Assembly (NCBI GenBank): GCA_002694685.1
Contig: NZMW01000010.1
Span: forward strand, 124,001 to 188,000
Origin: Balneola sp.
Lineage (GTDB): Bacteria; Bacteroidota; Rhodothermia; Balneolales; Balneolaceae
Direction of reading: 5' to 3'
Length of the DNA stretch: 64,000 nt
The notes below the pieces were generated by a model. It was not told the origin of the DNA. It saw only the letters and a list, made by a program, of their open reading frames with translations, and did no database searches. Both the position numbers and the translations under genes were made by a program. Within the stretch, counting starts at the first letter, position 1; every line of letters begins with the position of its first letter. Positions 121 through 24,817 of this stretch are shown piece by piece.

Positions 121-2601
121 ATGGCCAGAGAAAAAATTATACCTATTACTATAGAAGACGAAATGCAGTCTTCCTACATCGATTATTCGATGTCGGTTAT
201 TGTATCCAGGGCTCTTCCTGATGTTAGAGATGGCTTAAAGCCTGTTCACCGACGTGCACTTTACGGAATGAACGACCTGGGGATGTATCATAATCGTAAC
301 TACAAGAAAAGTGCCCGTATTGTTGGTGAGGTTCTTGGTAAGTACCACCCTCACGGTGATACTGCTGTTTATGATTCCATTGTTCGAATGGTTCAGGATT
401 TTTCGCTTCGCTACCCACTCGTTGACGGTCAGGGAAACTTTGGCTCCATTGACGGTGATAGCGCGGCTGCTATGCGTTATACTGAAGTCCGCATGGATCG
501 CCTTTCAGAAGAACTTCTTTCTGACATCAACAAAGAAACGGTTGACTACCAGCCTAACTTTGATGATACCCTTGAAGAGCCAACCGTTCTTCCAAGTATG
601 TTGCCGAATCTCCTGCTAAATGGAGCTTCCGGTATCGCTGTTGGTATGGCGACTAATATGGCTCCACATAATATGACGGAAGTCATTGACGGAGTTACCG
701 CCTATATCGACAATCCGGATATCGAAATTAAGGCACTAATGGAACACATTACGGCTCCTGATTTCCCTACTGCTGGTATTATTTATGGATATGAAGGTGT
801 TAAAAACGCTTATGAAACGGGTCGTGGTAAAGTAACGCTCCGTGCACGTGCCAATACTGAAGAGCTTCGTGGTAATCGTGAGCAAATCGTTATTACTGAG
901 ATTCCTTATCAGGTTAATAAAAGCACGCTTATTCAGAAAATTGCCTCTCTTGTAAATGATGAGAAGATTACTGAAATCTCAGAGGTTCGTGATGAGTCTG
1001 ACAGAGAAGGAATTCGCGTTGTCATTATTTTGAAGCGATCTGCAAATGCAGGCGTTGTACTTAATCAATTATATAAGTACACCCAGATGCAGACTACTTT
1101 TGGTATTATCAACCTCGCCCTTGTAAAAGGCAGGCCAAAAGTAATGGATCTCAAAGAGCTGATTTATCACTTTGTAGAGCACAGAGTTGATATTATCATC
1201 CGACGTACCATGTATGACCTGGATCAAGCGGAAGCTCGGGCGCATATTCTTGAAGGTCTTAAAATTGCTCTTGATAACCTGGATGAAGTTATTAAAACCA
1301 TTCGGGCATCTAATAATCCTTCAGAAGCTAACATTGAACTTCGTAAGAAGTTTGCCCTTACAGATATTCAGGCTAAGGCAATCCTGGACATGCGCTTACA
1401 AAAGCTTACCGGCTTAGAGCGTGAAAAGATTGATGGTGAATACAGAGAGATTATTGACAAAATTTCTGATTATCGCGAAATCTTATCTAACCGTGACAAG
1501 CAAACATCTATTATTAAGGAAGAGCTTGCAGATCTAAAAAAACGATATGGCGATGGGCGAAGAACTCAGGTAGTTCACTCTGCTGACGACTTCAACATCG
1601 AAGACATGATCGCGAATGAAGATGTCGTTGTGACTATTTCCAACAAAGGGTTTATAAAACGCATGCCCGTAAGTGGATATCGCCGACAGCGCCGTGGTGG
1701 AAAAGGAATGAAAGGCACCACAACCCGCGATGAGGAATATGTAGAACATTTATTCGTAGCCACAACCCACAACTATATTCTATTCTTTACAGAGAAAGGA
1801 ATGTGTTACTGGTTGAAGGTTTATGAAATACCAGAAGGAGGTCGACTCGCAAGAGGTCGTGCTATTGTCAACCTTATCGAATTAGATAAGGATGATGCCA
1901 TTAAAGCCTTTGTTCCGGTCAAAACCCTTGAAGATGAAGAGTACATTAACGAACACTCTATCATCATGGCCACAAAAGATGGGCAGGTTAAGAAAACTAC
2001 CCTCGAGGCTTATAGTCGCCCAAGAAGGGATGGAATCATTGCTATCAACATTAAGGAAGGCGACAGCTTATTAGCTGCTGAGCTAACTGATGGTGAAAGT
2101 AATATCATTCTTGCCAACAAAAATGGTAGAGCTATACGATTCCACGAAAGTGACGTTCGAGATATGGGCCGAAACACTTCCGGTGTAAAAGGTATGACAC
2201 TCGGCAAGAAAGATGAAATTGTGGACATGGTTGTCATTAAGAACACTCATGAAGCAACTGTTCTTGCAATGTCAGAAAACGGTTATGGTAAACGCTCTCT
2301 TGTAGATGATTACAGAGAACAATCAAGGGGCGGTAAAGGCGTTATTACATTGAAGATAACTCCTAAGACCGGTGACCTGATTGCCCTTAAAGAAGTTACC
2401 GATCATGATGATTTAATGATCATCACTGAGAAAGGGAAGGTAATTAGAATGAGTTGTGGAGGTATTCGAACAATGGGTCGAAATACTCAAGGTGTTCGAA
2501 TCATGCGCCTCGACTCTGATGGTGCTATTGCAGCCGTAACAAGAGTTGTCAATGAAGAAGAAGGTGATGACGACGAAGGAGGAGAAGGCGATGAAGATTA
2601 A
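121..2601 (+). CDS. gyrA: DNA gyrase subunit A
   Basis: This is the 826-residue breakage-reunion subunit of the type II topoisomerase that introduces negative supercoils. The winged-helix/tower region fills about residues 30-480. The DNA-cleaving tyrosine is Tyr120 in [11 protein letters not shown]. The quinolone-determining region reads [10 protein letters not shown], so the position equivalent to E. coli Ser83 is Thr81 and Asp85 is kept. The C-terminal beta-pinwheel starts with a GyrA box, QRRGGKG, near residue 525, which separates it from ParC. The protein ends in a very acidic tail. There is no clear Shine-Dalgarno; the ATG follows gyrB by 45 bases, so the two are probably cotranscribed. 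A strong hairpin terminator follows. Confidence 0.98.
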
Positions 2602-4285: not shown

Positions 4286-6172
4286 TTAGTTTTTGAGGTA
4301 AACCATCAGTACAGAGAGGTCGCTGGCCGATACGCCGCTAATCCTGCTGGCCTGTCCAATTGTTTCGGGCTTTATTTTCGATAGCTTCTGCGCACCCTCT
4401 GTTGATAAGCTCTTGATGTTAGAGTATTCGACTTGTTCTGGGATGTTCATATTCTCCTGTTTCTCCATCTCCCTCACCATCTCGAATTCTTTTTCTATAT
4501 AGCCGGCATACTTAATTTGAATCTCAACTTGCTCAAGAACCTTTTCGTCCTGACTGATTTCATCTATTCGATTAGCTAGCTCTCCATCATATTCCATCAT
4601 CTCTTGTAAAGAAATCTCGGGGCGCAATAGAATCTTAACCGCCTTCATCGGCTGACTCATTGTCGAACTATCTTTACTCTCTAAAAGCGGGTCGGTTTTC
4701 TCTGGTCGAACAGTATAATCCTTAATTAAATCATCAAGTTTATCAATGGCCTCTTGCTTAATGCGGACTTTTTCTAGCCGCTCATCTGAAGCAAGCCCTA
4801 TCTTATGACCTATTTCTGTAAGTCTTAAATCGGCATTATCCTGGCGAAGCAGTATGCGATGTTCTGCTCGGGAGGTGAACATTCTATATGGTTCTTCTGT
4901 CCCTTTATTAATAAGATCGTCAATGAGAACCCCTATGTAAGCTTCGGATCTTTGTAAGATAAGAGGCTCTTTGCCCTGTGCGGAAAGGCCTGCGTTTATT
5001 CCAGCCATCAAACCCTGACAGGCTGCTTCTTCATAACCAGTGGTCCCGTTGATTTGACCGGCAAAGAAAAGCCCTGATACGATCTTTGTTTCCAAAGAGC
5101 GCTTAATTTGGTGCGGTGGAAAATAATCATACTCGATAGCATACCCGGGACGAATCATAATTACTTCTTCAAAACCAGGGATACTTCTTAGTGCTTTATA
5201 CTGAACATCTTCTGGAAGAGAGGTTGAAAAACCATTTAAATACATCTCATAAGTATTCCATCCCTCAGGCTCGAGAAACAGCTGGTGCTGATCTTTGTCT
5301 GCGAATCTGTTAATCTTGTCCTCTATACTTGGGCAGTACCTTGGGCCTATAGATTTAATTCTTCCATTAAACATCGGACTTCTGTCGAAACCCGTTTTTA
5401 AGACTTCGTGTACTTCAGTATTTGTGTATCCAATCCAACAAGACATCTGCTCTTCCAAAGAAGGAAGTTTGTCGGTTAAAAAAGAAAATGCAGTTGGCTC
5501 ATCATCTCCATATTGTTCTTCTAATTGAGAATAGTCCACCGTTCTCCCATCTACTCTTGGCGGGGTTCCTGTTTTAAGACGGCCAACTTCGAAACCCAAC
5601 TCTTCAAGAGAAGCAGAGATACCAACAGAAGCTCTCTCTCCGGAGCGACCTCCGCCGTAATTAGATTCACCGATATGTATAAGCCCGTTGAGAAAAGTCC
5701 CGCTAGTCAGAATCACAGCTTTTGCATAAAACTTTTGCCCCGTTTGAGTAACAACTCCTTTCACTTTATTGCCATCTTCAGAGATAAGGTCAACAACGTT
5801 GTCTTGCCTGAAGAATAGGTTCTCTTTCTGCTCAAGCTTTTCCCTCATCTTTTGAGCATACAACATTCGGTCGCTTTGGCATCGTGGGCTCCACATCGCT
5901 GGACCTTTGCTTTTATTAAGCATCCTGAACTGGACTCCGGACTCATCACTTACAATACCGGAAAGCCCCCCTAAAGCATCAATTTCTCTAACTAGTTGTC
6001 CTTTAGCAACACCTCCCATGGCCGGGTTACAAGACATTTTGGCTATAGCTTCAAGATTCATTGTAATTAAAAGTGTTTTTGCTCCAACCTGAGCTGCAGC
6101 CCCCGCGGCTTCACTTCCTGCGTGGCCTCCACCAACTACAATAACATCATATTGAGGATCTAAAACGGACAT
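4286..6172 (-). CDS. mnmG: tRNA uridine-5-carboxymethylaminomethyl modification enzyme MnmG
   Basis: MnmG (GidA) works with MnmE to place the (carboxymethyl)aminomethyl group on U34 of certain tRNAs, using FAD, NADH and methylene-THF. The 628 residues match the family. The FAD-binding motif [12 protein letters not shown] is at about residues 12-23, followed by the family blocks [31 protein letters not shown] and [10 protein letters not shown]. It leads the minus-strand group mnmG-rsmG-WYL. mnmE is not in the window. Confidence 0.97.
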
Positions 6173-22396: not shown

Positions 22397-23404
22397 TTAA
22401 GCTACTTTTCCAACTACAAAAACCTCTTCCCTTAATTCTTCTGCTTTTTTCGTTACGGCATCCACTTCACTTTCAGAAACAACGGCTATCAACCCAATGC
22501 CTAAGTTGAAGGTTGCTTGCATATCATCTTCAGGTACATTACCAATTTCCTGGATGAGATTATAAACGGGTGGGCGTTTCCAACCATCCCAGATGATATC
22601 GAGTTTAAGTCCTTCGGGAAGAATTCGCTTCGTGTTCCCCACAATTCCACCGCCGGTTATGTGGGAAAATCCGTTTACTCCATCCAGATCTTTTAATTCT
22701 GTAATCAAGGATAAGTATGAACGATGAACTTTAAGGAGTTCATCCCCAACCGTACTTCCAAGCTCTTCCACATAGTTTTCTACATTGTGTTTACTGAAAA
22801 GCACTTTCCTTGCCAGTGAATATCCGTTGGTATGCAAACCCGAACTTTTGAATCCTAAAAGCATATCACCCTTTTGGATATCAGATCCGTTGATCACTTT
22901 ATCTTCATCAACAATTCCTACAATGGTTCCTGCCAGGTCAAATTCACCGGCATCATAAATATCCGGCATTTCGGCAGTTTCACCACCAATAAGAGCCACT
23001 CCATTTTCTTTACAGGCCTTGGCAAATCCTTTTACTACATCTACCCCTACATGCTGCTCCAGCTTTCCGGTTGAAAAATAATCGAGGAAGAACAGCGGCT
23101 TGGCTCCACATACAGCAATATCATTTACACAATGGTTTACCAGATCCTGTCCCACCGTGTTATATCGGCCTACCTTAAAAGCTACAATTAACTTTGTACC
23201 AACGCCGTCAACAGAGCTGACAAAAACAGGCTTTTTAAAACCACTTAAATCCGGACTGAAAAATCCTCCAAAGCCACCAATATTGGATAAAACTTCGGGT
23301 CCATGAGTGTCTTTAACCACACCTTTGATGGACTCTACCATTTCTTCTCCGGCTTTGATATCTACACCGGAATCTTTGTACGTAAATTGTTTCTTATCTG
23401 ACAT
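22397..23404 (-). CDS. purM: Phosphoribosylformylglycinamidine cyclo-ligase (AIR synthetase)
   Basis: PurM closes the imidazole ring of aminoimidazole ribotide from FGAM and ATP. The 335 residues match the family. Diagnostic blocks are FTYKDSGVDIKAGEEMVESI, SSVDGVGTKLIVAF, GGETAEMPDIY, GLHTNGYSLAR and HITGGGIVGNTKRILP. Other purine genes (purS, purQ) are at 61-63 kb. Confidence 0.97.
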   Translation of the reverse strand: MSDKKQFTYKDSGVDIKAGEEMVESIKGVVKDTHGPEVLSNIGGFGGFFSPDLSGFKKPVFVSSVDGVGTKLIVAFKVGRYNTVGQDLVNHCVNDIAVCGAKPLFFLDYFSTGKLEQHVGVDVVKGFAKACKENGVALIGGETAEMPDIYDAGEFDLAGTIVGIVDEDKVINGSDIQKGDMLLGFKSSGLHTNGYSLARKVLFSKHNVENYVEELGSTVGDELLKVHRSYLSLITELKDLDGVNGFSHITGGGIVGNTKRILPEGLKLDIIWDGWKRPPVYNLIQEIGNVPEDDMQATFNLGIGLIAVVSESEVDAVTKKAEELREEVFVVGKVA

Positions 23405-23410
23405 TGGTTA

Positions 23411-23935
23411 CTAAGATTTTTCTTCTTGGGTTACGAGACGAATATGTGCTAAATGATGATTGGAGTGCCATGCATACAAAGCAGCTGAATGAGCCAGTGT
23501 AAATGTTATACCTGATTCAGGATTAATATAAGTTCGCTTCCACTGGTCATCATCTAAACTTTGATATATACGAACGAGCATCTCATGGGTGTTTTCAAGC
23601 ATATCAAGAGTGAGTTCTAAAGGAAGTTCAAACTCGAAATCTACCTCTACCCAGCCATTTTGGTTATAAGGACGAATAGTTGGAGTATCTTCCGTTAAAG
23701 CGGTTTTGATTCTTACAATAGCATTCAGATGACAATCCAATAAATGAGTGATTACCTCACGAACCGTCCATCCATTTTCTCTGTATGGGATCAGTAAAAC
23801 ATCATCAGAAGATCCATCGATTTCATTTCTGATACGCTCTGGGAGTAGAGCGATATCATCCAGCCATTGTTCAAGATCTTCCTGAGTATAATCTTCAGAG
23901 AAAGAAAGTTTACCTATGGGAAATTGTTTATTCAT
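23411..23935 (-). CDS. DinB/YfiT-family metal-dependent protein
   Basis: The 174-residue protein has the four-helix DinB_2 pattern with metal ligands in VREVITHLLDCHLNA and LYAWHSNHHLAHIRL, as in YfiT/BstA-type proteins. Relatives are thiol-S-transferases or metal-dependent hydrolases; no bacillithiol genes are visible here. It lies 6 bases upstream of purM and marks the left border of the proposed origin. Confidence 0.85.
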   Translation of the reverse strand: MNKQFPIGKLSFSEDYTQEDLEQWLDDIALLPERIRNEIDGSSDDVLLIPYRENGWTVREVITHLLDCHLNAIVRIKTALTEDTPTIRPYNQNGWVEVDFEFELPLELTLDMLENTHEMLVRIYQSLDDDQWKRTYINPESGITFTLAHSAALYAWHSNHHLAHIRLVTQEEKS

Positions 23936-24376
23936 GGATGGCTCTTATTTGAGTAAAATCACATCTGAAATATAGAATCTTTACAAGAGTGTTTTGGAAT
24001 CTTTTTCCCATTCTTTTCCACACCAGAATACAATAAGTATGGGATTTATATAATTTGTAGTAGTAGTAGAGACTGTGGATAAGTTGATAACTTTTTTATC
24101 CTTTATTTTACCAGCGCCCTTAAAAACATGTGGATAGTTTTGTGGGTAACTCGCTCATAAAAATCAGTACTTTAAAAGAGTTGATAAAATGTTATTCACA
24201 ATCCCATATGTTTTATACATAAATATTGCATTATATCCATCAACACTAAAAGTTATTCTTTTTGAATGTTGATTATCCGGTTTGAATGTGGAAACTTGTT
24301 TACAACTTTGGTGCTTTTGAGTTATCCAATGTTTAGAAGTGAGTAATCCACATAGTAATCCACACTGATACCCCCC
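23936..24376. other. oriC: Proposed chromosomal replication origin (oriC)
   Basis: This 441 bp AT-rich gap between divergent genes has no open gene. DnaA boxes with at most one mismatch to TTATNCACA are at 24014-24022 (plus), 24074-24082 (minus, perfect), 24129-24137 and 24141-24149 (minus), 24192-24200 (plus, TTATTCACA, perfect), 24344-24352 and 24356-24364 (plus). Weaker ones lie near 24322. An unwinding core is at 24030-24082. Gene orientation leans away from it and parS sites lie 20 kb off. dnaA is not adjacent, which is common in this group. Confidence 0.82.
24030..24082 (-). promoter_or_regulatory. Origin unwinding core: DnaA box, DnaA-trio, AT-rich element
   Basis: Reading the minus strand: TTATCCACA (24082-24074), spacer GTCT, CTACTACTACTA (24069-24058), then AAATTATATAAAT and further AT-rich DNA to about 24030. 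This is the box / spacer / trio / AT-rich order described for bacterial basal unwinding systems, where DnaA extends from the box along the trios onto single strand. Confidence 0.78.
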
Positions 24377-24817
24377 ATGAAAGCAGTTATACAGCGCGTA
24401 AAATCTTCATCCGTAATGGTAGATAATGAAATAACCGGAGCTATTGAGCACGGATTATTAGTATTACTGGGAATTCATGAAGACGATACAGACCAGCAAC
24501 TGGAATGGATCTGCAATAAGATTTCCAAGCTACGCATTTTTGAGGATGAAGAAGGTAAAATGAATAACTCGGTGCAGGATGTAGGCGGCGGTATTTTAAT
24601 AGTATCTCAATTCACACTTTATGCTAATTCTGATAAAGGAACACGCCCAAGTTTTATAGAAGCAGCCCGGCCTGAAAAAGCTGAACCTATGTATAATGAT
24701 ATGATTGAATGGTTTAAAACCAATACAGATCTGAATATACAAACGGGAGAATTTGGGGCTATGATGAGCGTAAAGCTGGAAAATGACGGCCCGGTAACAA
24801 TTATACTGGAGAAGTAA
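24377..24817 (+). CDS. dtd: D-aminoacyl-tRNA deacylase
   Basis: Dtd hydrolyses D-amino acids from mischarged tRNA. The 146-residue protein has family blocks MKAVIQRVKSSSVMVD, GLLVLLGIHEDDT, the active-site SQFTLYANSDKGTRPSF, and the GxxGAMMSV-type C-terminal motif (FGAMMSVKLENDGPVT). It borders the proposed origin and leads a three-gene operon; the next gene starts directly after its stop. Confidence 0.97.
   Translation: MKAVIQRVKSSSVMVDNEITGAIEHGLLVLLGIHEDDTDQQLEWICNKISKLRIFEDEEGKMNNSVQDVGGGILIVSQFTLYANSDKGTRPSFIEAARPEKAEPMYNDMIEWFKTNTDLNIQTGEFGAMMSVKLENDGPVTIILEK

Follow-up and report, generated by a model that had tools for sequence, protein, structure and literature searches.

Where does the chromosome of this Balneolaceae species start to replicate? 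The question is raised by an intergenic gap of 441 bp (positions 23936-24376) in the stretch of 64,000 nucleotides that we analysed (hereafter, the window), which is part of a 618-kb contig (C10) of a 3.95-Mb genome in 17 contigs. The initial annotation had interpreted this gap as an oriC. Our analysis supports this interpretation: the position of the GC-skew minimum and the conservation of the DnaA boxes both came out in its favour and, judging from the sequence, the gap is very probably the chromosomal oriC. This reading rests on the boxes, the trio, their spacing, their conservation, the sign change of the skew and the separation from dnaA, all of which were computed here.

As had been annotated, the genes that border the gap are divergent, with a DinB_2 family gene on the minus strand to the left and dtd on the plus strand to the right (Table 1). 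The neighbouring genes were also confirmed to point away from the gap, since 11 of the 15 open reading frames on the left lie on the minus strand and 11 of the 16 on the right lie on the plus strand. This count covers dtd and the frames of at least 150 amino acids of which all or most lies no more than 20 kb from the gap; two frames nested in longer ones and one truncated at the left limit were omitted. The claim that gyrB and gyrA run toward the gap held for gyrA (121-2601, plus strand), which would therefore be read against the leftward fork; gyrB lies outside the window.

Table 1. Coordinates of the features of the candidate origin and of its flanking genes (window positions).
Feature	Position	Strand	Remark
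DinB_2 family gene, left flank	23411-23935	-	domain match
Candidate oriC, intergenic gap, 68% AT	23936-24376		between DinB_2 gene and dtd
DnaA box TTTTCCACA, far side of AT-rich stretch	24014-24022	+	one mismatch
AT-rich side of the unwinding element	24030-24057		79% AT over 24030-24062, compared to 68% for the gap
Four in-phase TAG repeats, DnaA-trios (CTACTACTACTA on minus strand)	24058-24069	+	sequence
Spacer AGAC between trios and box, 4 nt	24070-24073		4 nt in 22/22 aligned loci, ungapped here
Exact DnaA box TTATCCACA, adjoining the trios	24074-24082	-	24074-24084 identical in 9/9 genus loci
Tandem weaker box TTATCAACT, two mismatches	24082-24090	-	8 bp on from the exact box; TTATCCACT (one mismatch) in several relatives
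DnaA box CTATCCACA	24129-24137	-	one mismatch
DnaA box TTACCCACA	24141-24149	-	one mismatch
DnaA box TTATTCACA	24192-24200	+	one mismatch with respect to TTATCCACA
Highly conserved block AAAAGTTATTCTTTTTGAATGTTGAT	24248-24273	+	22/26 bases identical in 9/9 genus loci
DnaA box TAATCCACA, -33 from dtd start	24344-24352	+	one mismatch; 24343-24364 identical in 9/9 genus loci
DnaA box TAATCCACA, -21 from dtd start	24356-24364	+	one mismatch; inside 24343-24364, identical in 9/9 genus loci
dtd (PF02580 Tyr_Deacylase), right flank	24377-24817	+	domain match

When the gap was compared to TTATCCACA, seven boxes within one mismatch were found, one exact and six with a single mismatch. The whole window contains 29 such sites, with respect to 17.8 expected in shuffles; this corresponds to about 0.12 sites per 441 bp, so that seven boxes in one gap are far beyond chance. 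The looser consensus of the DnaA box is TTATNCACA, under which TTATTCACA is also exact; for this reason, the count of two perfect and about five further boxes given previously holds under this consensus. In the 723 kb of the source genome that were counted (681 kb distinct), at least four boxes per 500 bp were found just in the gap and in the dnaA promoter. On the dtd side, three blocks (24248-24273, 24320-24329 and 24343-24364) showed a conservation within the genus that is about equal to that of the unwinding core; they may be low-affinity boxes, a site for a bending protein or the dtd promoter.

The order of box, GTCT, CTACTACTACTA and AT-rich DNA that had been described on the minus strand is present as claimed. 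The sections of PMC8287927 that deal with the BUS define it as a DnaA-box, a spacer of no more than 16 bp and at least three DnaA-trios, indicate a tandem second DnaA-box as its commonest arrangement, and report BUS-type sequences in 1755 of the 2070 predicted origins surveyed. According to the same sections, in the B. subtilis BUS DnaA bound to two boxes extends onto 3'-GAT-5' trios and stretches one strand (PMC8287927). The sequence layout of the gap corresponds to that definition, with an exact box, a 4-nt spacer, four TAG trios and a tandem second box (PMC8287927). It is also like the Bacillus subtilis BUS (DnaA-boxes 6/7 and DnaA-trios) as these sections describe it, in that tandem boxes, a short spacer, TAG repeats and AT-rich DNA beyond them are all present here (PMC8287927). 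In our alignment (A2) the first trio is TAG in all of the 22 loci and the second in 16 of them; these loci were chosen by hand and therefore the counts lean toward clear cases. From what is established on initiation in bacteria, DnaA would bind the box cluster of the gap and, from the tandem pair at 24074-24090, would extend onto the TAG trios at 24058-24069. The adjacent AT-rich DNA would then melt, and loading of the helicase would lead to two forks departing from the gap.

The relative orientation of boxes and trios is shared by the gap and the Bacillus subtilis BUS. However, the origin of Bacillus subtilis adjoins dnaA, whereas in the source genome dnaA and the gap are on different contigs, and in eight relatives they are 268-452 kb apart. 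In Escherichia coli, oriC is located between mioC and mnmG/gidA and is unlinked to dnaA. The gap is like such dnaA-unlinked origins in having a cluster of DnaA boxes and an AT-rich element at a skew break and away from dnaA; mnmG/gidA, which is a classic origin neighbour elsewhere, is found 18 kb off (window 4286-6172). Unlike Escherichia coli oriC, the gap is flanked by DinB_2 and dtd, and its unwinding side carries TAG trios in the BUS layout. The features of an oriC found in the gap are the box cluster, the sign change of the skew, the AT-rich element and the conserved position.

A minimum of the cumulative GC skew near the gap had been proposed as a check. In a table of 2-kb steps the sign of the skew switches at the gap, and the cumulative minimum of the window is at 23368. 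Along contig C10, the five sampled 20-kb blocks on the left of the gap all had a negative skew, from -0.068 to -0.088; of the 15 on the right, 13 were positive and two were close to zero (-0.002 and -0.004). A similar picture was obtained with a 2.2-Mb contig of a congeneric genome (G001), in which 15/15 sampled blocks left of dtd were negative and 5/5 on its right positive, and the local skew minimum falls at 1536061, 495 bp ahead of the dtd start. When a two-breakpoint fit was applied to 20 sampled blocks of each of three complete chromosomes of the order (G068, G096 and G042), the boundary at dtd ranked first of 20 in each; these blocks are samples of the chromosomes, and one boundary was made to coincide with dtd, the remaining ones being gaps 160-200 kb wide. 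Permutations that equalled the dtd boundary were 0, 0 and 22 of 2000, respectively. The signal is weak in G042, where a distant runner-up boundary scored 0.520 as compared to 0.544 for the best one, and in G096 the neighbouring boundary reached 0.918 with respect to 0.945. A terminus search with a dif-like pattern known from other bacteria gave from 0 to 3 matches per genome in five genomes, overall no more than the reversed control.

The boxes and the trio, whose conservation in relatives had been anticipated, are kept at nearly fixed offsets across the order Balneolales. At least three boxes within 500 bp upstream of dtd were found in 48 of 49 loci of the order (0.1% of shuffles), the sole box-free locus being that of G054 (L022). 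The motif TAG-N4-box, with up to two mismatches in the box, was present in 40 loci (1.8% of shuffles), and the remaining 9/49 are without this strict form. These 49 loci include the window's own and derive from 51 supplied from 52 dtd-bearing genomes (G052, with a partial dtd match, was omitted, and L027 and L218 were too short); the control consisted of shuffles by pairs of bases. Within the genus, the tandem boxes, the box-proximal trio and several other blocks are identical in 9/9 loci.

A sequence-only model of the unwinding half (R1; 159 positions, built from 22 loci, with E-values from a shortened calibration) was then used on whole genomes. In the source genome, which is among the 22 behind the model, it matches G000:C10:147999-148150, that is window 23999-24150. 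Matches were obtained in 163 of 195 genomes of the class and in 91 of 99 of the order (90 once, G144 twice); the 99 searched include 20 of the 22 genomes from which the model was built. No match was found in eight order genomes (G123, G030, G162, G023, G011, G034, G195 and G197); the contig ends 200 bp before dtd in G034 and 18 bp before it in G011. The match and dtd both have a listed place in 89 order genomes, and in 88 of them the match starts 366-493 bp upstream of dtd and on its strand. Twenty of the 88 had contributed sequences to the model, and independently of it the count is 68 of 69 (the place of dtd in G197 is missing from this comparison). The order genome G198 has its match at C20:3924-4066, next to a thiL-like (AIRS) gene, and its dtd is on a different contig, possibly as a result of a local rearrangement of the dtd side of the origin or of a fragmented assembly. 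In 20 class genomes picked by hand outside the order, the roughly 1 kb preceding dtd was free of boxes in every case (0 of 20). In the best 80 of at least 585 dtd loci, mostly from Firmicutes and other phyla, just two, both from Balneolaceae, reach three boxes within 600 bp upstream, L130 having 235 bp upstream only.

The gap was said to be unlinked to dnaA and indeed dnaA lies on contig C2. Among the 22 order genomes looked up, eight have both genes on one contig, with the DnaA domain and dtd separated by 268 kb (G042), 346 kb (G068), 361 kb (G027), 369 kb (G031), 408 kb (G006), 434 kb (G001), 448 kb (G096, round the circle) and 452 kb (G007). The dnaA reading frame of the source genome contains FGGRDHSTVIHA, which we take to be the DnaA signature for canonical boxes. 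A second conserved array of DnaA boxes is located upstream of dnaA (G000:C2:212065-212335, corresponding to L083 12065-12335); in the order it commonly consists of four boxes that face the same way, two of them 11 bp apart and the others following at about 152 and 99 bp.

This array is part of the counter-evidence to the oriC reading of the gap, and it might be argued that the true origin is the dnaA promoter, with the dtd gap acting as a secondary DnaA-binding site for titration of DnaA or regulation of dtd. In fact, 20 of the 21 order loci have at least three boxes upstream of dnaA, which almost all share one orientation and are similarly spaced (the remaining locus, that of G042, is truncated by the contig start), and in the source genome there are two exact and three near ones. 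However, in the two genomes tested the skew keeps its sign at dnaA, being positive on both sides in G000:C2 and negative on both sides in G001. Moreover, when the sampled block nearest to dnaA was taken as the origin boundary it ranked 8, 4 and 3 of 20 in G042, G068 and G096, whereas dtd ranked first. The trios are also nearly always absent, as a scan of both strands upstream of dnaA found TAG-N4-box at only 2 of 21 loci. We therefore consider it very unlikely that the dnaA promoter is the origin; its array probably serves dnaA autoregulation.

Through the two conserved boxes at -33 and -21 from the dtd start, DnaA may also influence the transcription of dtd, and these boxes would fit the idea that the boxes are merely a DnaA-controlled promoter of dtd or of the DinB gene and that no origin exists here. 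This idea leaves the replichore-scale change of skew unexplained, and the unwinding module also occurs without an adjoining dtd in G198 and elsewhere in the class, so that a promoter function only is extremely improbable. Even less credible, to a point close to negligible, is that the gap belongs to an integrated plasmid or phage as its replication origin: a generic cluster of boxes agrees with it, and nothing beyond, whereas the module occupies one conserved place across the order and the skew break is chromosome-wide. A blastn search retrieved no similar DNA from 72,556 plasmid and 50,697 phage records, and a plasmid or phage origin was rejected.

With the dtd gap retained as the predicted oriC, the same module was looked at in the rest of the class, where R1 matches 72 of the 96 genomes outside the order, eight of them twice, at loci that are not dtd loci where compared. 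Twenty matches were examined, 19 from outside the order and that of G198. Fifteen of the 19 and also G198 contain the strict TAG-N4-box, which is absent from L301, L303, L305 and L307; it should be considered that R1 itself selects for this motif. These loci share the TAG-N4-box core with the gap but differ in gene neighbourhood. A glucose-6-phosphate isomerase gene is near nine of the 19 (L297, L298, L299, L300, L303, L304, L308, L310 and L311), a comEC gene near seven (L300, L301, L302, L303, L304, L306 and L311) and a Usp gene near six (L298, L300, L305, L307, L309 and L312). At least one of the three is near 16 of the 19, and none near L295, L296 and L313; these counts cover the scanned flanking proteins only, usually the nearest one on each side. 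The local skew, taken over about 5 kb on each side of the match, passes from negative to positive in 13 of the 20 and is higher on the right than on the left in 17, being reversed at L308, L312 and L313. This local signal is no more than suggestive of an origin at those loci.

Very dense clusters were observed in L304 (G141, 4462-5489) and L302 (G101, 4566-5568), with 19 and 17 boxes, respectively, within 450 bp of the R1 match. Three class genomes outside the order (G103, G107 and G113) have two DnaA-domain genes each, and in G113 the second one (206270) is about 30 kb from the R1 match (236228). Beyond the class R1 finds very little: at the level of the phylum, 30 of 118 genomes match it, seven of them outside the class at 2.6e-5 to 9.6e-4.

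On balance, we lean slightly toward a scenario in which the unwinding module predates its gene surroundings: one BUS-type origin, placed away from dnaA, would have been inherited both by this order and by its sister lineages in the class, while its neighbours were exchanged (DinB/thiL-like and dtd here, glucose-6-phosphate isomerase, Usp and comEC among the sisters). In addition, the distant and conserved trio-free array of the dnaA promoter would represent a second DnaA site, separated from the origin in space and in replication time.

Origins unlinked to dnaA and origins of the BUS type are both already known. Full-text literature searches returned no paper on a Balneolales replication origin among the matches listed, and a prior prediction of the DoriC type is possible. 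For the whole order, the dtd gap provides a firm position of the origin and a core element that can be tested. The record of G042 appears to start at dnaA, and therefore not at the origin; origin-to-terminus analyses of records that start at dnaA need the position of the dtd gap. The order also represents a natural comparison of two conserved arrays of DnaA boxes, one with trios and a skew break and one with neither.
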